64,000 bases of DNA, taken from positions 9,084,351-9,148,350 of the forward strand of contig JAKZAN010000006.1 in the NCBI GenBank assembly GCA_023053545.1. Reading direction: 5' to 3'. The notes beneath the pieces are model-generated. The model saw only the letters and a list, made by a program, of their open reading frames with translations. It searched no databases and was not told the origin of the DNA. Both the position numbers and the translations under genes were made by a program. The stretch is from Lepidurus packardi (taxonomy: Eukaryota; Arthropoda; Branchiopoda; Notostraca; Triopsidae). Shown piece by piece: positions 14,755 through 42,300 of the stretch (position 1 is its first letter; each line of letters starts with the position of its first letter).

Positions 14755-17700
14755 ATGGAACGACGGCGCTCGATGCGGAACCGAGGCCGTTATCGTCAGA
14801 GGCCACGCCCACTGACCGATAAACTGAAGGACTTTTGCCGCGCATTAGTCGCCTTCATTTTCGGGTAAACTATATAATACCATTGGGCTTAAAGACTCGT
14901 GGTATAAATGTTGAATTAATACTTTAATTCTTCTTCCATAGTCTAATTAAAGCTGCCTTTTGGTTATTATATTCTTGTTCTCGTCTTTTGTAGTCACGTG
15001 GGTATTTGCGGCTTGGTCGTGGGATACATTATCGTGGGCGCGTTCGCCTTCATGGCCATCGAAGGCAGAGAAGACGAGGAAGATCCAGACGGTGAATTGT
15101 CGCCGTATGAGAAAGTGGGGCAAATTCGCGATGAAACAGTGACGCGGCTTTGGACGCTTACAGCGGAGCTCAATGTGCTATATCGTGACAATTGGACAGC
15201 GTTAGTGGCCGCCGAAGTATCGGCCTTTCAAGAGACGGTGATAACTGCCGTATCACAAGGGTATGAAGGCCACGAGTCCGCACCCTTGTCATCGCAATGG
15301 ACCTTCTCAGGAGCTTTCTTGTATTGTCTCACTGTCATTACCACAATCGGTAAAACAAAAAATCTACTTTTTTCCTTCGTTTTTTTTCTTACAGATTTCC
15401 TGGCTTCTTTCCTTTTCTGTAACAACGACATTAACAGAAAAGAAACATCTCCAGGAAACCGTCTTTAAAAAAATGGTTATTGTTGTTTGGGTCGCAAGTC
15501 TCCAAAGTAACTTGCGGAGGATAAGATATATCGCAAATAAAAGACTCTTTCCACCCAGATGACAGATAGTACTTAGCCTTCTCCAACCTCCACCCCTTTC
15601 CCCTCCCTCATTCACATTTTCCTTTTTGTTCGAGCTGGGGGACGATTCTTGCCGCGTCTTTTAAAGGGAACAAAAAAAGGGCCCAAAGATTTTTGGCAAT
15701 GACGTCCGTTTCTTGCCAAAGGAAAGGGGCGACACGTGCGTCATGGACGCCTCGATTCCTATCCACCTTCCTTTTTGTAGTTGTACATGATAGAGGTGTC
15801 TCTCTGTTCTCCTCCAACGTCCTTCCCAGGAGCCTCCAATTTCATTAGCCTCATCGCCTCCCGTTCACGAACCTGGGCTATCCTTCAGAGGGTGAGGCTA
15901 GTACGTATATACAGCCTTCCCACTGTACTACTTTTCCTTTCAGCTCGTCTCCTTCCAGTTCTTCCGCAAGTCCCTAAACGCAGAAGAAGCATCCCGTCCC
16001 TTTCCCCGTTCTTTCCTGCATCTTCATTTGCATTGTCGTCTTAAATTTAATAGTGGGGCAGCAAGCTTCCCATAAGACTCGATGCTGTGTTGCCCGTCTT
16101 AAGTCGTCGTCGGCAGAGCGCAATCGAATTGACTTTGCCTAACGTCCCCTGGGGTTCGACTTAAAACCCCTCACCCCCCGACGCAACGAAGAAGGAGCTA
16201 ATTACTGGAGCACTAACTAAGGATACCCTCTTGTCTTGCAGGCTTATGAGTGGCTTTGATAAACTACTACTAGCTTGCTTATCCTTTATGCAATACTTTT
16301 GCAGTTAACTGAACTTGATATCTGACACTTGTTTTTATTTCGCAAATAGGCTATGGAAACATAGCGCCGAGAACCATCTGGGGCAAAATTGGTACCATAA
16401 TTTATGCCATGGTGGGCATGCCATTGTTTTTGCTCTACGTGTCCAACATTGGGGACATTTTAGCCACGGGTTTTAGGTGGACGTACCTCAAGATGTGCAA
16501 ATGCCAAAGCAGTCGAAGAAGGCGTGGTAACACAAAAAGCGGAACTGGGCGGCATCGCCACCATCATCATCACAGTCCAAACGACACGCCTTGGCAGGTA
16601 ATCGTTTTGGACCCTGTCCATATCTTCTTTGATTAAATATCGACACTCCAGTGGCTCGTGTTTCCAGGATTATATAACAAGTGATAGTAATAGCACATAT
16701 GCCAATAGTACACTTACAAAAAGTAAAGTCATATTTCAAAGCAAAAAATTGACCTACTTCAAAGCGATATAACGTTCCGCTTTATAATAGAAGCAAATTT
16801 CCCTTGGAATAGAACTTTACCTTTTTCGGTATGTAAATATGAGTCACTATACGCTTTGCCTAAAAGATTATGTAATAGCAATTCGCAAAATATTGTTTCA
16901 GTTAACTGAAAAAATTTATTGCCACGGTAAATTTTGATTAAGTAGTATGTTCAGATAATTATGCAATTATCTGAAAAAAAGAAGAGCGAAAGAACAAAAA
17001 TTATTAAAGGATACAAGGCTCAATTTTTTTTTAATATTTAAGTATCAAATACAAGTAAGATTAAAATAAGGCCGCCGTGTCGTTCAATATACAAATTTCA
17101 AAATAGGGCGCTACTTTAATTTTTTTTCTCAGTACAGTTACAAACTTAGTTTTTCACTTGCTTAAAACAAATGATATTTTTTCAATAAATTATTATTTAT
17201 AATGCATAGTTTTTCCTTCCCAAATGTTTCAAAAAACCCCAACCATGCAATTTCACACAAATGTAGTAAATTTATTTAATCATATTTAAAACAAATTCAA
17301 TGAGAAATATATTGTTAATCTATTTGCACCAGATTATGGTCAAACTAGTTTCTAGCTATTTAAAAAAAATGACGACTAAATGGGGAAAAAGGTTTTTTTT
17401 GTCTTAATTCCCGAAGGTGTTGAGGGTTATAGTCTTAAGGCCACGGTGTATAGGAACCCCGTATGTCGCTAGAGCATGGCAAATTTTGATTCGAGAATTC
17501 TCACTATCTGTGCAATATAATACAATTGTATTATGCTTTTGGGCCGCGTCGTCGGCAAGGCACGTTACCACAGGACGCCAGCCAAAAATCCGCAGCACTT
17601 CGTTAGACTAGCACACTTTGAACCGTAACATGAGCGGTAGTGCGATTGCAGCAAGAAAAAAAAGGCGTTTTTTTAATTGCCACTGTAACATAGCCAAAGC

Positions 17701-19058
17701 TTTAAAGTCACTGGGCTCGGTTTTTTATCCGCAGGTTTCATAGAAAAGCGACCGTCAATGCTATTAGGATAGGGAAATCCGAAAAGTGTTGTTTGGGGTT
17801 AGTTTTTGAGTCAATTTTGTATTAATTAGTCACTTAATACACAAGATAGCCATAAGAGTTCTTTAGCCATAACAAACAGGTTTCGGTTATCAATTGAACT
17901 CAATCACAAAATGTTGTACCTTACCCCTGTTTTAACTAAAAATTAATCTAGAACATGAAGTGAATTAATTTTGAAGCATGTTAGCCAGAAATAACTACTT
18001 TAATTCCAATATAATATTCCAAAAGTTTTGCCATTTTAAAAATTTCTGCAGTAAAATGTAAACATCTCTAAATTCCTTACTGATTTGCAATATCACAAAA
18101 AAGTATACTATAATATTGGCGTGCAAGAGTACCTCAATATTGAATTGTGAAATTACGAATAATTTCTTTGCAATGTAGAAATGTTTAAAAAAATACGTTT
18201 CAGAAAGTCCCAAAATAGCAGATATGAGTCATTTCTTTATTATTCTAAGGTAGTTAATTTTAAGCTAATTAAGTTTCACCCTAACTAATTAAATACATTA
18301 TTGTCATGTTTTACAAAAATCAACACCTAATATAATCCTTCATTAATGCAACTGACAAAGAAATTAATAAATCATGGGAAAAAATTCAGCCCGACGTTCA
18401 TGCTTCTCACAAATCGTATAATGAAATCCTAGCAACGAGAAGTTACAATAATCTCAGAAATGTCTCAAGAAATGTAACCGAATTAGCAAATATGTAATTC
18501 ATTATGGAATGAAATATTTGATTTTAGAAATCTAGTTTCACTGATCATATTTATACTCGCATTTCCACGGACATTCCGAATACATTTAAGCTAGTTAATA
18601 GTTTCAAACTTTTATAAGCAATGTCATCTTTTTTTAAGGATGGTGATCATCAGGTGGAAAAGGGTCCTGAAATAGACGACGAAAGCGAGGAAGAAGAGGA
18701 CCCGCCGATCGACGTAAATTCAGTGACGGTCCCCATCACCATTTGTTTGACTGTCATGGTGGGGTACGTGTGCGGTGGAGCTTTGCTATTTGCGCAGTGG
18801 GAAGCATGGGATTTTTTGGACGGCTCCTACTTCTGCTTCATTTCGTTGTCCACCACCGGGCTAGGGGATTTGGTGCCCGGTGATTCCTTCAGCTCGGATT
18901 CCGGGGTGCAACTCTCGCTCATCTTCTGCTCCATGTACTTGATCATTGGAATGGCGCTCATTGCCATGTGTTTCAATTTAATGCAAGAAGAAGTGGTCGC
19001 CAAAGTGAGACGTTGTGGAAGTGTCCTAGGCTGTTTCCGCCAGCAACCAGATGACTAA
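14755..19058 (+). CDS. Two-pore-domain potassium channel, cluster gene 1 (complete, 4 exons)
   Basis: K2P leak channel subunit in the plasma membrane. Exons: 14755-14864, 14994-15349, 16350-16597, 18639-19058, giving 377 aa with all phases agreeing. Order: basic N-terminus ([13 protein letters not shown]), TM1 ([23 protein letters not shown]), an extracellular cap with the cluster-wide motif [18 protein letters not shown] (sequon NWT), pore helix and filter 1 TTIGYGN, TM2 ([21 protein letters not shown]), a cytosolic loop with a His run (HRHHHHHHS) and an acidic run ([11 protein letters not shown]), TM3, filter 2 TTGLGD, TM4 ([20 protein letters not shown]), and a short basic tail. No cap cysteine is seen. 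The third intron (about 2 kb) is AT-rich and empty. Closest cluster relative is gene 4, which shares RQ-type tail residues and the MCKC sequence after TM2. No orthologue name is assigned. Confidence 0.92.
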
Positions 19059-27297: not shown

Positions 27298-27886
27298 ACC
27301 AATGCTACGTCACAGCTTCCGTGGCTGAAAAAGGCCAAAACTTCGCAAGTTAATAACTCGGGAACGGCTTTTCAGAAAGATTTTTTTCTTCTAAAATTTC
27401 GAAAAAATTCGGAAGAATAATGTGTACAATAAGTCCATCAAAATCTCAACATTCGAGTTAGTTTGGTGGCTACTGACCTTTAAAAGTAGGTAACGTAGGC
27501 AATGCTAATGCAGAGACAATGCGTGACAGTCATATTTGTTCTATTGTTGCTTCACTAACTTCACCTATGCAAAGCCCTCCGCGACGCGTCGCGGTAGATT
27601 AGGTGTAAGCTAAGCCAAATAGCAATGTTATAAGAATAGGAAAATTTTAAATTTTGAGTGGGGGAGCAGGGCCTACTCCGCTAAATACTTATGGACTAAG
27701 TTAATATAAATAATTAACATAGGGGTTCTTCATCCAGCACATTTCGTTTGGTCTGTTCTATAAAAATCTTTTTCATTTTGAAACCTTACTCCCCCTTTAT
27801 TTGAGAAAAGACAGTTTGTATTCAGTCTGTCCTGACTTATGTGGTTTCCGTTATTTTTCTTAGATGGTGAAGATCTGGAGGCGGTA

Positions 27887-30800
27887 ATGCAGATGCCCGC
27901 TGCTCCGCCAGGTTCCAGGATCGGATGCGGTCCCCGTTGCCTCAGGCACTGTCGTAGCTGGTGCCGAGGAAGTACACCCACAGGGGTGTGTCTATGGCTC
28001 CTCCTGTACCTATGCCTTGGAGCAGTTATGTTCATGCTTTTGGAAGGAAACTTGCTCACTCCTGTTCAACAACATCGAAATGGTGGTTTGTCCCGCATGA
28101 ATGACGCCACAAGCAGCGAAGAGGACCCGTTGTTGGGTCACATCACCGCCGCTACGGTGGAGCGCTTGTGGGCGTTTACCGAAGAATTGAATATTTTGTA
28201 CCGGGACAACTGGACCACACTAGCTCGAGCAGAAATGACTCGGTACCAGCAACTAGTAGGCCACGCCCTCCGTCAACGCCTCCTGCAAGAGCGTTATTCC
28301 TTGCCGTACACATGGTCCTTTCCTATGGCGTTCCTGTACTCGCTCTCGCTCATTAGCACGATCGGTAAGCTTTAAAATAATGATCCAACCGCTGCCTGAG
28401 ATAAAAATTTGCTGTTCTGAATTCAATTAAATAAAAAAACAGGGGAGGGGAATTAAGCTGCACCAAAAAAAATTTTTATATATAGCTTTGCATGGCAATT
28501 AGGAAATCATGAGGATTTGCTCCTGAAAGCGTGCTCGACGACGGCTCCGCCAAAACTGATTTCCCAATTAGAATTTGTTTTTTTAATAAGTAAACATAAA
28601 AGTGGGGGAAAATAAAAAAAGTTGCATCTCACTGAAAGAAACGAAGGGAAAACATTTTGGGTTATTGACATTTTTCTTCTCCTTCGTATCTTTCCTGTTT
28701 TTATTAAGAATTGTGAAAAGCTTTGGGCACAATTTATAGGTACCTGCGGGCTGAAAAGCGCGATGGTGGCCAATCGTAACGACTGCTAAAAGTGTATTAT
28801 AAATAAAAAAAAATAATAAGAAGAAAATATAAAGGAAAATAAGCAGAAGGCAAGAATGGGGTTAAATGATCGTTTGTTGGCTCATATCTTCACACAGTCC
28901 CCCAACTATCTGAAGTCTTTACATCTTGCAGAAATAGGGGTAAGAATCGGCCGACTTGTTTGGATGGATGTAAGTCCACAGGTCTCGCTGACTGGGCAGT
29001 TTCTAACATGGTTTTCTTTTGAAATTGTCTTTCATTGTGGGTCCTTGGAGACGGGCAACAATATAGGAATAAGCAAAAGTATACAAAAGAAAAAAGTCGA
29101 GAGAAATAACTTTTCCATCAAGAAGGAAAAGTTTGAACTCGCAAAAAATAAATAAATTGCCCAAATCGAAAGAAGATATGACATGGCAGCCCTTTTCTCA
29201 AGACTTGTGCTCCAGGGATTGTTGTTCTTTACGTGGTAGACACTGTGCATGGAGCATTAATATAAGAAAAAGAGCTGCATTTTGTTTCGCGTCCTTTCTC
29301 AATTCATCACAGCCCACTATTATCGAATTTCCATCAAAGAAAAGTTGCGTGGGAAATGCACACATTTCACTCCTCTCTCTCTACTTTGCCGATATACCAC
29401 AAATCGATGCTGAAGCATTCCAGGGAGTGGACAAATAGATGAGAAAATAAAGTGTTTTTGATTATGTTAAAGTGTCTTTCCTTTTATAACATAGTCCAAT
29501 TTTTCAGTCCCATTGTCATTACGACACACATGTCACACATGACACATATTACCATTACGACACACTCTCCGATATGTTACAAATCAGCTCGTGACAATGC
29601 AATAATGGAGCTCGTTCAAGCGTGCTTTGATTGGGCGTTTAATTTATCATTACAATCTTACGTATGCGGGAATGCGGATATCACGGACTCGTGGCTTCAC
29701 TGACTTTGCGAGAAAACCTTAATGTGGCAGACATTTCCTCCTGAAATGTGCCAATATTTGCTCCACTCCATTCTAAATTATTTGCTTTTCTACACGAAGT
29801 AATATAAAGTTCGATCTGAGATTTTATTTTCTAATTCAAACATACTGTGATTGATGAGGTACTCTTTAAAAAATGTTTCACTGGGTGGCAAAAAACGAAG
29901 GAGCTCACTACAAAATTAAGTTTATGTTAGTAGTCAATAAAAAAGCCCTTTCCGTTTTTTTAAACCTGAAACGTGAATAGAATTAAAGCAAAAAAAACCC
30001 ACATAATTAAAAAAAAAATGAAAAGTTCTGGCTACAGAGTCAATTTCTAAGCACTATTTATACGAAAAGACGCTGCTATTTTTCTTAGAATTATTGATGC
30101 TCCAAAAAGGATGGGAAAATGTAAGGTGCAAAGTTTATAATTGGAAGTTTCCCGAAAGGATGTATGTGCTTAATAGGCTAATAGGTAAAAAGAAACTGAC
30201 ACACAGCAAAAAGTGTATTGGCATTTTTGCACTTAAACATTGAACTATGTCAATAACGTATTGAACAATTACAACAACAAAATTAAATGTATAACGTAGA
30301 ACAAAATATATAATTTTTAATTAATTATACAAAGAAACGTACGTTTCTTTATGTAGTTTTTCAACCAAAAAATTATTAATTCTTGAACCGCATGAACGCG
30401 TGTAAAAAAAAATTCTTTGGCAGTACTCCTGTGCTTGCTAACAGGTACAATGAATGTATAATTTTTCAAATAAGTAATTAGCTAGCAATATGCAAATGAA
30501 GTTTGCAACTATGAGAAATACGTTACCTAAAAATCTGTCCTTTGGTTGTGCACTAGATGCTGATAAAAGAAAACTTTTGTTTTAGTTTGCTTTCAAATCT
30601 GAAAAGCCGTTTTCGACAAATCTTGTTCCGAAAGTTTGACGACTTGATTTGGGATATTGTGCTGTACAGCAAACTGTAGTGACAAGTTTTACTTTTCATA
30701 AGCAAAATAAGCGTAGGAACTTTACCGAAAATTAGCTATTTAATTCTTTCCTTACATTCTTACGCAAGGCTTTCGCAAAGACAATAACAAACATTAGTGC

Positions 30801-31962
30801 CATCTGTGACTCTTTCCCATCAATAGCTAAGGTATACGGGGGCAGCGGTTGCGGTTCCTAGAACTTCGCTGTAGATTTAAGATTTAACATATGGAATTTT
30901 TTTTTTGCAACTCTAAGAAATAAGCTGTCTAAAAAGTTCCTTTTTATAGTGTACTATGCATTAAAAAAATATAATGTACATTGCAAATAAACAAACAAAT
31001 CTGCTATTGAGAAATCTTGTTCCTATAGCTATGTCGATTTAGCTTGCTAACCGCCTATGCCGAGCTGTGAGTTATGCAGAGCTATGCCGGGGTAAAGTAA
31101 AGGGAGCCTTAACCGTCTCGACCAAAAATTTCTGGGTACAGAAAATTAAAGTTTCCTATAAACTTTAAACTCAGCTTACTCGTTTAGTTACAGTTATTCT
31201 TTATAATAAAAAATAAGTAAAGTTAACTTTCACTCACCCTTATTTTCTGCTCTTTCATAAATAGGCTATGGCGCATTTTCACCCCGGAGTGCCATAGGTC
31301 AAATTCTGGCGCTCTTTTACTCCATCTTGGGCATTCCTCTCTTCCTAGCTTTCCTAGCACTGGTAGGCGGAGCTTGGTCACGCGCTTTACGTCATCTACT
31401 GCAATTTAAAGCCAGTCGCTGTCTTTGGACCTTCTTCCCACTCGGACTCCGTCGAGCTCCGCCCGCCAAGAAGCCTTTGGACCTCCACCGCCTGCGAGAA
31501 CTCACCTCCTTATCATCAACTAGAGGACCCTTGGACCCGCCGCTTCATCCTTACGGCTCACCTACCTTCCCTACGTTACCTTCCCCGCCTCCCGTTAGCA
31601 AGTGGCCAGCATCCATCTTGGGCTTGTTAATCCTGAGCCTGTACCTAACAGCTGGAAGTTGTATCTTCGCCTTCACTGCCACGCCTACCCACTCGGGTGG
31701 TGAGGGCGTTAGTAACACCGAAACATTAAGCTTCTTGGACGGTTTTTACCTCAGTTTCTCGCTACTAACGACCATCGGCTTTGGGACCTTCCTCGCAGGG
31801 GCTGAAGGCGGTTGGGCTAGCTCCTCCTCTTCGTTCATCGCTTTTATTTCCGCCTACATTTTACTTGGAATGGCTCTTATCTCTACGTGCTTCGCATTGC
31901 TGACGGACGATGAGCCGCGTGCTTGTCCTGGCTTGGATATAATAAATAGTCCGCGCTCTTGA
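27887..31962 (+). CDS. Two-pore-domain potassium channel, cluster gene 2 (2 coding exons, atypical filters)
   Basis: Exons: about 27864-28364 and 31265-31962. A good 3' splice site (TTATTTTTCTTAG, ending 27863) suggests an upstream exon. The first in-frame ATG after it is 27887 (MQMPAAPPG); an ATG at 27839 would lie inside the presumed intron. From 27887 the product is 391 aa. TM1 is GVCLWLLLYLCLGAVMFMLLEG. The cap has ERLWAFTEELNILYRDNWT. Filter 1 reads STIGYGA and filter 2 TTIGFGT, where most K2Ps have N/H/D and D after the GYG/GFG triplet. TM2 to TM3 are joined by a Pro-rich loop of about 100 residues. TM4 is FISAYILLGMALISTCFALL. The frame ends at TGA (31960-31962) but stays open in the same frame for 93 further codons to TAA 32242-32244 (see separate entry). 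The 2.9-kb intron holds dispersed repeat copies. Confidence 0.88.
28365..31264. other. Large intron of K2P gene 2
   Basis: Donor ATCG|GTAAGC, acceptor AAATAG|GC, phase 1 inside the first filter glycine. It is AT-rich. The right half carries a copy of dispersed repeat family A (about 30390-30850). No exon is recognised inside it. Confidence 0.7.
30390..30850 (+). repeat. Dispersed AT-rich repeat, family A, copy 1
   Basis: Aligns by eye with 57240-57600. Shared landmarks in the same order: GCTAACAGGTA, AATATGCAAAT-AAGTTTG, CTTTGGTT-TGCACTAG, AAAAGAAAACTTTTGTTTTAG, AAGCCGTTTTCGA-AAATC, TTGACGACTTGATT. It ends near AGCTAAGGTATACGGG. Its last 150 bp are also shared with the inverted-repeat element at 59216-59600. 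No coding capacity is seen. Confidence 0.75.
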
Positions 31963-37804: not shown

Positions 37805-39136
37805 ATGGCCAGTCAAGAGAAGGATGAGCGTGGCATCAAAGCCACTGGTTCCGTCCCCAGTTTTAACCTTTGCGTTTCTCGATTCTTCAGAGTTCTGTGC
37901 ACCAATTTAGGAGTTTCCTTGTCCCTTATTGCCTATACTACTCTGGGGGCGTTTGTATTTCTCGCCTTGGAAAAAGAGACCCCATTGGCACGCCCCCTTA
38001 CCCCACTGAGCCCTCCTGTAGCTGCCGAATCCGTCCCAGTCATGGAACCAGAAATTGACGCACGAAGAGAACTCGTAGAACGACTCTGGGACATGACCGA
38101 GTCCCTCAACATCTTGTACAAAGATAACTGGACGCGTTTAGCAACTGACGAAGTCCTTCGCTTTCAGTTGGACACTTTCCGCGAATCCGCCGTAACCGCC
38201 ATACCTACTGCTTCTACCAGTATTCATCGCGATCAATGGACATTTCCCAAAGCTTTTCTTTACGCTTTGAGCATCATCACTAGCATCGGTAACAATTTAT
38301 GTTTCCTAATCTTATAATCATCACCAATAAAACGATTCCAATATTTTGCTTCTTTTCCGTTCCAATTAGGCTGCAATCACGTTACCATACGAAGCAAGTG
38401 GGGCAAAATCGTAACGATGCTGTACGCCCTAATTGGCCTGCCGCTTATGCTTCTATATCTCGCTATGGTTGGCGCTTTGCTAGCCCAAGGGTTACGCTTT
38501 GTCTACTCGCGCGTGTTCGATCGTGCTTTACATCCTCCGTCAGATTACTCCTACGACGACGAGTTAATGCCGCCCCATTACCGCACTACCCCATCGCCGT
38601 TCTTCCTGCCCGACCACGCTCCTCAACGAGAATCGTGCTCCATGGAAACTGACTCTTTAGACTTGCTGGTGAAAGGTCACTCGCACCAAATTCTCCACAA
38701 GTCTACTACCACATGCGCTCCCCAGCATTCCGCGCCTGCTTCGGCAGCATTCTGGCGTTCCGTCATCCTTCCCTCGGCCTTTTGCGTCTGCGTGTTATTA
38801 GTTTGGATCTTGTTCGGAGCCGCAATGTTCATGCACTTGGAACAGTGGAGTTTCTTAGACGCAGTTTTCTTCAGTTTCATGACCCTCGCCACCATCGGTT
38901 TCGGTGACCTGGTGCCCGGTGGCAGTGACCAGGATCCCACAGGGTCAGATGCGCGATTGCTGTTCGTCGCGTTCTATTTATTCACGGGAATGGCCCTCAC
39001 GTCCATGCTTTTCAACTTGGTACTGGACCAAACTCTGGCCCACGTTCGCCGCCGCTCCGTTCCTTGGTTAGCTTCTTACTCCACTTCTTACTCGTCCTCT
39101 TTTCCTCACCAGAAAGAACAGCCCACCCTTTCATGA
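37805..39136 (+). CDS. Two-pore-domain potassium channel, cluster gene 3 (2 coding exons, GCN filter)
   Basis: Exons: 37805-38288 and 38370-39136 (intron only 81 bp, phase 1 in the first filter glycine codon), giving 416 aa. A strong 3' splice site, TTTGCTCTAG, ends 5 bases before the ATG, so a non-coding upstream exon (or a trans-splice site) is likely. TM1 is LGVSLSLIAYTTLGAFVFLALE. The cap has ERLWDMTESLNILYKDNWT. Filter 1 reads ITSIGCNHVT: the usual GYG is replaced by Gly-Cys-Asn. TM2 is VTMLYALIGLPLMLLYLAMVG. A cytosolic loop of about 110 residues follows. Filter 2 is a normal ATIGFGD, followed by TM4 and a Ser/Tyr-rich tail. The gene is convergent with gene 4, with 174 bp between stop codons. 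Confidence 0.92.
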
Positions 39137-39310: not shown

Positions 39311-42300
39311 CTAAAGTAAATTTTGGCGTAACAGTCCCAATCGTCTTCCCACGCGCTTGATCTTCATGAAAACCTCTTCCTGGGCTAAGTTAAAACACAT
39401 GGCAAGCAGCGCCATGCCCAAGAGCAAGTACACCGCACACAGGATAAGTTTGTAGTCTACAGCTTCAGGAGACACGGTTCCAGTGCCTGGAATGAGATCG
39501 CCGAATCCGATGGTGAGAAGACTGGTGAAGGAGAAGTAGAATCCGTCAACAAAATTCCAGCCTTCCCATGTTGAAAAGAGGATGGCCCCTCCGCCCACAA
39601 AGGACAACATGACAAATAAACACGATGTCACTGACACCGTCTCCGGATCGTCGTCCGTACCAACATTTTGTGCAAGAACCGTTCCATCTGACGGTGGTAA
39701 TCCAGCTGCTGCGGCTGTAGCAGCTATCGTAGCCAATGCCGTTCCTTTCTGACGTTTTGGTCGCTTTGTGCACCTGAAAATAGAACGCATAGAATTCCGT
39801 TGAGTCGAAGCAACATAAAGTTGGAAATTTTCTAGTTCAGCACATACTTGCACATGGAGGAATAGGTATATTTAAAGGAAGACGCTAACGCATCGCCCAT
39901 GTTGGTCATGTAGAGCAGAATGAGCGGAATTCCCAACAATGCGTAGAGTATGGTTGCAATCTTGCCCCAAACCGTCTGTGGCGCTAAATTTCCGTAACCT
40001 GTGACGAGACGGAAATAAAAAATTAAAGCAAAATGAGAAGGAATAAGTTATTATAGCAAGGGAAAGATTAAATAAATATGATCAATTTGGCTTTAGTTAT
40101 CAACAATTTGACGAGTCTTCGAATTTCATGCCAAAACAGCCGTGGTAGAACATCAGCCGCGGACTAGTCACGGGGAATTTAAGCAAAAAGAAAGAAACGA
40201 AAAGAAAGAAAAAATGAAGTAAAGAATGTTGAAAGTAGTTAGACCCAGGGACATATAAGCGAGATGGACTGGCGCGGTTCCAAATTGGCAACATCATTGA
40301 GACACATGTTCCCGGCGACCAGGCGAAGCGTCTTTTTAGCTTTTAATCTTTTACTTTCCTCCCCATATATATCTTTGCTTGCTAATTATATATGAAAGCT
40401 ATTGATGAACGATATTTCGTAAGTATTCAAAAACACTTGAGACTGTTTTTTCCCACATTTTTCTTTCCTCTACTGGTTTGTAGACTAATGACACGTCGCT
40501 GGCTTTACTTTATCGACTCGCATACATGTGACAAGACGGTAGAGGTGAAAGCTACGAAAAAAAACCCGCCAAAGAATATAGAGTGAAACAAGTACCTAAA
40601 ATGCACAGAGATCTAGATAGGTTTAGACTAAAAATGTACGTTATGCCTCTTTTTTAGTTTAAACATACCTAATTAGCGTACCTAACGTACCTAATTAAAT
40701 TATAGTATTGTGAAATCGAAACTTCGAATTTTATTAAACGACCTAAAGTTAAATTAAGTCGCAAGACACAAACGTACTTACATTAAATTAGAATTTAATT
40801 GCAATTTTGATATCATTCAAATTTTTTTTTTTAAAAAAGTATATATTATTTCTTTCTTCTGTGAATTGTTTTAATTTAAGATTAACAACGTTACGTTGTT
40901 CAACCAGTCCGAGCTCATATAATAGTTGGGTTCATTGCTATATTTGAATAACGACATAATACCGAGAACGGTATAACACAAACGGATTTCTTTGTCGCTT
41001 GGGTGCTGTATGTTATTTTTGGGTATGCTAAATAAACCTGCACTGTAAACAGTTCTCTGAAATTGTGAAGAATAACTCTTAGTCAAGAAAAATGTAGTGA
41101 ATAACGGATGGGCAAGACAGCCTAATGGTTCAAACCAGCTCCATACTAGAAGCTAGTGATGCTAAACGCCATTCTCGCATTCACGGGAACCTTAACAAAA
41201 TAATTGTACATCTCTTATGCAGACAAAATTAAACCAACTAGAATGAGATAACAAAAATGAATTATACGACTAAAATATTTAAAATATAGACAAAACGAAG
41301 CAAAGTTACGTAAATGAAATTACGAATCTTCAAGGCAGTTAAAAAGTGAAACCTCTACATTCGTCAAATATGTTAAACTCACACGATTTTTATTTTGTGT
41401 AATTCTATGTCAGGCAGTTTGGAAATCGGATTGGCTATCTTCAAAGAATCATCTACATCAAACCATTTCAACTAAGGCATCTCTATTTTTTCCTTACACA
41501 CTAAAAATAAGCCAAGGACAATTTGGGATTTTGAACCTAAATAAGTTAAGGTGGAAGCTATAAACAACCTTAACGTGTTTTGTAAATTGTGAACAGGAAC
41601 TCGAAGGCACTTGCAAACTAAATAAATAAACACTATACACTTTTCCAGGGGTCCCCTGGGAACCCGAGACGGGAAGCCAGAAAGAAGAATGTCTTTTTTC
41701 TTTTTTAGTACCTATACGTATACTTTACCTATAGTTGAGTAGACTGTGAGGCAAAAGAAAAGTGCAGCTGGGAAAGACCAAGGTGACGGTGCGGAACCGG
41801 TGGGATCTTCATAGCCACGCTTGATCTGGGACACCAAATATCTTTGGTATGAAGCGAGAGCACTGTCAACGCTCCGGCTCCATTCATCACGATGCAACAC
41901 ATTGTAGTGAAAAGTCAGATTCCACAAAATCGCCGCTTGCGCACTTCGTGCTTCCAATACCTCAAGTGTAACTCTTTTGTTGGGATCTCCCTCCAAGGCT
42001 CTGAACACTATGGCACCAAAAATGGTATAACCCACCACCAATGCACACACGCCCACCTAAGTCGACACATCAATTACTTATTGAAAAGTGCTTCTAAATT
42101 AAACAAGAACAAAGAGGCAAAGATACTTGCGAATAAACACGGCAGTAAAAAGCAAATACTCAAAACGAAGTAATGCTAAAGAACTACGTATATAACAGTC
42201 ACCAATCCTGTTTAAAGGAGTTACTGTTAAAATTAAATTAGTTTTCTATAGCTTTCTCTATAGCTTTCTGATGATAGCATTGGGAAAGCAGAAGAAATCA

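Follow-up and report, generated by a model that had tools for sequence, protein, structure and literature searches.

The window analyzed here, i.e., the whole 64-kb stretch of DNA, carries four predicted K2P genes; genes 1, 2, and 3 lie on the plus strand, and gene 4 lies on the minus strand and is convergent with gene 3. Gene 3 has two coding exons, and its frame is open for 416 codons and would encode a 416-aa protein. The features of this gene and of its neighbors, by position in the window, are as follows.

37805..38288, plus strand: gene 3 coding exon A, with the N-terminus, M1, the cap (M1-P1 linker), pore helix 1, and T-S-I-G (first base of the Gly codon); from the open frame, the splice junction, and an HMM match (the profile includes gene 3 itself)
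38063..38179, plus strand: gene 3 cap segment, residues 87-125, identical to gene 1 at 21 of 38 compared positions and likewise to gene 2, with an N-W-T sequon at N108
38279..38380, plus strand: gene 3 filter 1, T159-S-I-G-C-N-H165, with the intron inside; from codons and alignment
38289..38369, plus strand: gene 3 intron, 81 bp, phase 1, GT...AG, splitting the codon of the first filter glycine
38370..39136, plus strand: gene 3 coding exon B, with C-N-H of filter 1, M2, M3, P2, M4, the tail, and stop TGA; from translation
38372-38374 and 38375-38377, plus strand: gene 3 filter-1 key residues C163 and N164, respectively; from codons
38888..38908, plus strand: gene 3 filter 2, canonical A-T-I-G-F-G-D; from sequence and paralogue alignment
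14755..19058, plus strand: K2P gene 1, filters TTIGYGN and STTGLGD, filter-1 intron 15350-16349; start codon picked by eye
27836..31962, plus strand: K2P gene 2, filters STIGYGA and TTIGFGT, filter-1 intron 28365-31264; the start given marks the open frame and not an ATG
39311..42056, minus strand: K2P gene 4, filters STIGYGN and LTIGFGD, filter-1 intron 39999-41728; model without its first exon

When positions 38289-38369 are spliced out, the filter-1 codons of gene 3 read ACT AGC ATC G/GC TGC AAT CAC (the slash marks the intron), i.e., T159, S160, I161, G162, C163, N164, and H165; the predicted junction at 38288/38370 is G/GCTGCAATCAC, and the spliced P1 region reads W-T-F-P-K-A-F-L-Y-A-L-S-I-I-T-S-I-G-C-N-H-V-T-I-R-S-K-W-G-K. 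The first-pass annotation of this DNA had reported the peptide ITSIGCNHVT across an 81-bp intron, with Cys and Asn in place of the Tyr and the second Gly of filter 1, and had argued that TGC AAT cannot be reached from TAC GGN by a single base change; splicing gave the same peptide and the same two codons, and by the codon table the step from TAC-GGY to TGC-AAT takes at least three changes. Its further claim that gene 3 does not represent simple pseudogene decay, as filter 2 is normal and all four membrane segments are intact, also agrees with our data, since the frame and the splice sites are intact, ATIGFGD is found at 38888-38908, and M1-M4 are recognizable both by hydropathy and by alignment.

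By architecture and homology, gene 3 is predicted to encode a K2P-family protein, while its designation as a K+ channel is only putative. Segments are arranged in the order M1-P1-M2-M3-P2-M4, i.e., four membrane segments and two pore loops, as judged from the paralogue alignment and from hydropathy, with hydropathy peaks that match M1-M4 and the two pore helices, and an M1-P1 linker is present that resembles the linkers of genes 1 and 2. PF07885 was matched on the M2 side of pore 1 (7.2e-5) and at pore 2 (2.3e-15), and a phmmer search of gene 3 against PDB yielded 57 distinct sequences at E <=0.001, with the top 40 all being K2P channels. The best match, TREK-1 (KCNK2; 9.6e-21), represents the closest solved structures by sequence, shares the 4TM/2P architecture, and aligns with gene 3 in both pore loops; it differs in conducting K+ and in having G-F-G in filter 1, where the ungapped alignment places I-G-F-G-N opposite I-G-C-N-H. 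In gene 3, P2 carries the K+ signature TxG(Y/F/L)G as ATIGFGD, and P1, with TSIGCN, lacks the signature TxGYG; few motifs in membrane biology are as constrained as GYG. An AlphaFold2 model of exon B alone, made from the single sequence, was poor (mean pLDDT 57.9, pTM 0.30) and had long helices at the positions expected for M2, M3, P2, and M4. Among the matches listed in a literature search, no title or abstract opening mentioned an arthropod K2P with an altered filter 1, in a literature that is thin for subscription journals; to our knowledge, silent K2P subunits are known only from mammals.

An explanation that we consider very improbable is that the working product of gene 3 is normal and that the genome misleads, through an assembly error, RNA editing, or the use of a different exon or junction. 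With regard to the junction, the codon of the filter glycine is split at the same position and in the same phase in genes 1, 2, 3, and 4 (gene 4 was read by eye and gives S-T-I-G-Y-G-N-L-A across its filter-1 junction), and the same split was read at the DNA level in four further K2P loci of this genome (L010, L013, L024, and L050); in two others, L009 and L012, the filter-1 glycine is without an intron and is read straight through. This mid-motif intron position, common to these K2P genes, is strong evidence for the predicted gene 3 junction, and because the split is identical in genes 1, 2, and 4, the GCN reading is not a register slip. Alternative splicing that restores G-x-G was tried with GT or GC donors from about 38151-38330 and AG acceptors from about 38301-38480, with introns of at least 40 bp and a frame open to the normal stop; none of the 16 in-frame pairs gave G-[aromatic/aliphatic/Cys/His]-G. 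A codon deletion from GYGN was ruled out as well, since the interval between the filter Gly and the W-G-K motif of M2 is ungapped in the alignment and equals that of the paralogues in length; in this alignment, the column of H165 is N or H in most paralogues. An HMM scan of window frames of at least 25 aa found no second P1 exon for gene 3, a size limit that a shorter exon could escape. As for editing, A-to-I conversion at both adenosines of AAT would yield Gly by the codon table, but a TGC codon cannot be converted to a Tyr codon in this way, and the fold of the exon-intron region was no better than that of shuffled sequences (z 0.15), which argues against an editing duplex. An assembly error at filter 1 would need at least three wrong bases plus the changes at residues 168 and 170.

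The genome searched comprises 108.6 Mb in 344 contigs, with contigs C1-C6 measuring 10.7-14.0 Mb. It contains 150 scored matches to PF00379, an arthropod cuticle domain; no match was found to PF02949, the family of insect odorant receptors, in a search with no positive control. A COX1-like copy, translated by the invertebrate mitochondrial code, has a crustacean look. A search for a second copy or haplotype of gene 3 returned, at 97-99% match, the window copy only, with the next hit by E-value at 42%. Fifteen K2P models, all from gene 3's own genome, were joined and aligned. Among 43 fetched regions, 12 were taken as K2P loci, i.e., 11 that entered the alignment and L011, which was omitted because no first half turned up; the remaining 31 were assigned by motif only to other K+ channels or chance matches, and the count of K2P loci is thus a lower bound. 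The paralogue models, pieced together by eye from exons with HMM matches, have gaps (M1 and M4 in L036; part of M1 in L015; the N-terminus in gene 4; M4 in L031, L038, and L050; and perhaps a piece of the cap in L013). An Rfam scan of the 64-kb window at gathering thresholds gave no matches.

Filter 1 is G-Y-G in 12 of the 15 models, the exceptions being gene 3 (GCN), L012 (GFG), and L050 (TGVDYG), while filter 2 is GFG in 11 of the 15, with GLG in gene 1 and L031, GIG in L012, and VGVGEG in L050. Besides gene 3, abnormal filters were found at three other K2P loci (L050, L012, and L024), none of which figured in the first-pass annotation. In L050 (G000:C4:10097500-10102500, minus strand; filter 1 near 2427, filter 2 near 1831) both filters are altered; filter 1, TGVDYG, has lost the first Gly, with the split codon G/AT encoding Asp, and filter 2 was read as VGVGEG in a loop that is two residues shorter. 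A weak M4-like match (L056, E 0.046) lies downstream of this locus. L012 (G000:C5:1314000-1319000) has filter 1 TMIGFGH (2291-2314) and filter 2 CKIGIGD (2800-2829), the latter with a lysine (AAA) at the inner filter threonine, preceding GIG. L024 (G000:C2:5112500-5117500, about 2170-2350) reads ALIGYGH in filter 1 (codons GCT TTA ATT G/GG TAT GGG CAT), with GYG kept and the inner Thr changed to Leu. A K2P 3' end occurs twice, in L010 (G000:C3:12236500-12242500) and L011 (12245000-12251000), at 97.5% identity over 828 bp; the first half of the L011 copy was not found within the 6 kb read.

In a whole-protein tree of 15 rows, a branch supported at 99/98 sets apart nine models, i.e., genes 1-4, L009, L010, L012, L013, and L050. 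The altered G-x-G and the Cys-Lys filters all fall inside this nine-gene clade, and L024 lies outside of it, adjoining L017; we take L017 and L024 to be TASK-like genes. Most forks inside the clade are unresolved, with L050, L009, and gene 2 forming long branches, and gene 3 joins gene 2 at 67/21, a value too low to place gene 3 among its kin. Trees of the separate exons comprised 11 rows (L024, L031, L036, and L050 were left out). The exon A tree pairs gene 2 with gene 3 (93/90) and adds gene 1 at the next node (87/89), with neither node starred; with exon B, a clade of genes 1, 2, and 3 is neither favored nor ruled out (p-AU 0.18). A conflict between the two exons as a sign of gene conversion was considered and, at this p-AU, was not borne out. 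The array of genes 1, 2, and 3, all on the plus strand, probably arose by tandem duplication, a history for which the trees give modest support. Gene 2 itself shows GFGT in place of GFGD in filter 2 and an insertion before P2 (window 31265-31962), and its M2-M4 branch is very long (6.1, exon B), yet its cap is close to those of genes 1 and 3.

We then considered whether gene 3 is young or fading, i.e., whether its pore is no longer under selection and the frame is still open only because too little time has passed, which we regard as unlikely. Conserved columns were defined by a threshold of at least 85% conservation among 11 reference paralogues, a set without gene 2, gene 3, L012, and L050. 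Gene 3 departs at 8 of the 34 columns so defined (E60P, T160S, Y163C, G164N, P168I, T170S, I185L, and Y328F), and since five of these eight departures fall within residues 160-170, the change is mostly local. Departures affect 5 of the 7 conserved columns in 160-170 vs 3 of the 27 elsewhere (Fisher p 0.0035; 0.0041 without the start-Met column, which is among the 34), and, when the odd-filtered L024 is dropped from the reference (35 columns), 5 of 7 vs 5 of 28 (p 0.012); these p values are only descriptive because the region was picked after the motif had been noticed. For comparison, departures number 0 to 3 in the reference paralogues, 7/34 in both gene 2 and L012, and 14/30 in L050. The loss of P168 and T170 right after GCN looks as if constraint had loosened and the whole loop were drifting, and the probable sister, gene 2, is very fast in M2-M4 (its end branch of 6.1 was flagged as long); odd filters occur in other K2P loci of the same genome, and a subunit that became non-functional recently would look identical to gene 3. 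Drift should, however, strike other conserved columns as well, and only 3 of 27 (5 of 28 without L024) have changed. Pore helix 1, the cap, and the sequon are well kept, filter 2 is canonical, and frame and splice sites are intact. In 600 neutral simulations of the gene 3 frame at 0.1 substitutions per site, a mean of 3.9 stops arose and 1.7% of the runs remained stop-free; as the end branch of gene 3 amounts to about 1 amino-acid change per column (15-row tree), gene 3 can have drifted freely for a small part of this branch at most. Third-position GC is high (0.57), compared with an intron GC of 0.28 and values of 0.40 and 0.32 for two samples of flanking sequence. Together, the predicted open frame and this third-position GC show past coding constraint, which argues against an old pseudogene and is compatible with a recent loss of function.

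Compared with gene 3, the cap is identical at 21/38 positions in gene 1, at 21/38 in gene 2, and at 10/38 in gene 4, while the membrane and pore blocks are identical at 75/162, 64/158, and 73/161 positions, respectively; genes 1, 2, and 3 are thus 55% identical in the cap vs 37-46% in the membrane and pore blocks, and share the N-W-T sequon in the cap. In the 28 pairs formed by eight genes of the nine-gene clade (L050 was left out), cap similarity exceeds membrane-part similarity only for the pairs 1-2, 1-3, and 2-3 and falls below it for the remaining 25; the triple of genes 1, 2, and 3 ranks first of 56 gene triples with a summed cap excess of 0.42 (next, 0.02), a ranking in which the underlying pairs are not independent. 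In genes 1-3, the pore and membrane parts have changed more than the cap, which is notably the opposite of what this family usually shows. Shared recent ancestry of exon A in the three genes can by itself account for the likeness of their caps, with no need for a dimer constraint. K2P subunits assemble with an extracellular cap, the dimer interface, formed from two M1-P1 linkers, and cap residues are described as important for dimerization, for dimer abundance, and for contacts with a related subunit (PMC4726246). Genes 1, 2, and 4 had been put forward in the first-pass annotation as candidate partners of gene 3; the shared cap retains genes 1 and 2 as candidates and moves gene 4, which does not share it, behind them.

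We lean toward the reading that gene 3 encodes a maintained K2P subunit that is pore-defective in P1 and acts as a modulatory or dominant-negative partner through heterodimers, a reading drawn from sequence and from analogy to mammalian subunits. In a K2P dimer, a single filter is built from four pore loops, two P1 and two P2, as stated in the same source (PMC4726246). The gene 3 product would fold and dimerize, but its first pore loop could not build the outer half of a K+ filter; the inner half is kept in kind (T-S-I-G), as the change of the inner Thr to Ser retains the hydroxyl, while in the outer half Cys and Asn stand in for the two residues that give the outer ion sites their shape, the Tyr and the second Gly. 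These sites should be disturbed once the Tyr is lost and the position of the second Gly bears a side chain. A homodimer, with two altered loops beside two normal P2 loops, would thus most likely conduct little or not at all. Gene 3 would instead join a conducting neighbor through the shared cap, gene 1 first and then gene 2, and may lower or retune the current or the surface level of that neighbor. The gating position TM2.6 of M2 is presumably Leu189 in gene 3, by our own count from TASK-1 numbering. Asp or Asn at TM2.6 is described as activating (PMC6377628), and since Leu189 is neither of these, gene 3 shows no sign of a compensating change.

The first-pass annotation had named three possible outcomes for such a channel, i.e., no conduction, reduced K+ selectivity, or function only as a partner of a neighboring subunit; the partner role is favored because the cap is shared with genes 1 and 2 and because TASK-5 (KCNK15) provides a precedent. 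TASK-5 is reported to be non-functional alone and to form heterodimers with TASK-1/3, whose surface level and conductance it alters (PMC11364637); according to the same paper, G95E, a common TASK-5 variant with EYG in filter 1, is non-conducting and dominant-negative. The likeness is that of a K2P subunit that, in the G95E variant, is broken in filter 1, where gene 3 is also altered; in contrast to G95E, which changes the first Gly and is a variant, GCN changes the Tyr and the second Gly and is the assembled reference sequence, and gene 3 groups apart from the TASK-like L017 and L024 in the 15-row tree. Since TASK-5 is silent even without the filter variant, filter sequence is only part of the parallel. 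KCNK7 (K2P7.1), which differs in belonging to the TWIK subfamily, is described as carrying GLE for GLG/GYG in a filter, a lesion in the other loop than that of gene 3. Like TASK-5, it appears among four K2Ps (K2P6, 7.1, 12.1, and 15.1) that are listed as non-functional when expressed alone (PMC11339754).

Homodimers of gene 3 could also conduct with weakened K+ selectivity through a NaK-like pore with sites S3-S4 only, leaking Na+ plus K+, which we likewise consider unlikely, and a shade more so than a fading gene. NaK is a bacterial channel in which all four loops are alike; gene 3 would differ in having two altered and two normal loops. T-S-I-G and the entire filter 2 are kept, two of four strands would be altered, in the outer half only, and Asn tolerates a left-handed backbone better than other non-Gly residues. 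Cys, on the other hand, cannot supply the contacts that the Tyr side chain makes behind the filter. NaK shares with gene 3 a filter with a normal inner half and an altered outer half (TVGDGN); it is non-selective, with S3 and S4 as its only sites (PMC9822992). The filter-1 EYG of TASK-3 and TASK-5 is reported to suppress current (PMC11364637), which argues against such conduction, with residues that differ from those of GCN. The GEG of L050 resembles the GDG of NaK.

With two of the three GYG residues replaced in one loop and the other loop and the cap kept, gene 3 is a natural experiment that bears on two questions, namely the number of intact strands required in a K+ filter and the origin of silent subunits through tandem duplication; a silent K2P in an arthropod would indicate that this route is recurrent. 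A broader and rather doubtful proposal is that the genome encodes a handful of K2P subunits with altered pores (gene 3, L050, L012, and L024, all open in the exons read), with the cap held and the pore diverging in genes 1-3, and that heterodimers with one altered loop of four would tune selectivity or suppress leak. Such a set would represent a built-in family of natural pore mutants.

The genome search also yielded observations on the assembly. COX1 genes on the small contigs C52, C43, and C214 are open in the standard code over 450-742 aa and have a bacterial look, and K+ channel exons on the small contigs C108, C201, and C300 contain in-frame TAA/TAG and have a ciliate look; small contigs such as these six are possible assembly contamination. 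Some K+ channel matches on large contigs carry stops too. Contigs C1, C2, C4, C5, and C6 contain many COX1-like stretches with TGA codons and a few TAA/TAG stops, which are probably nuclear copies of mitochondrial DNA.
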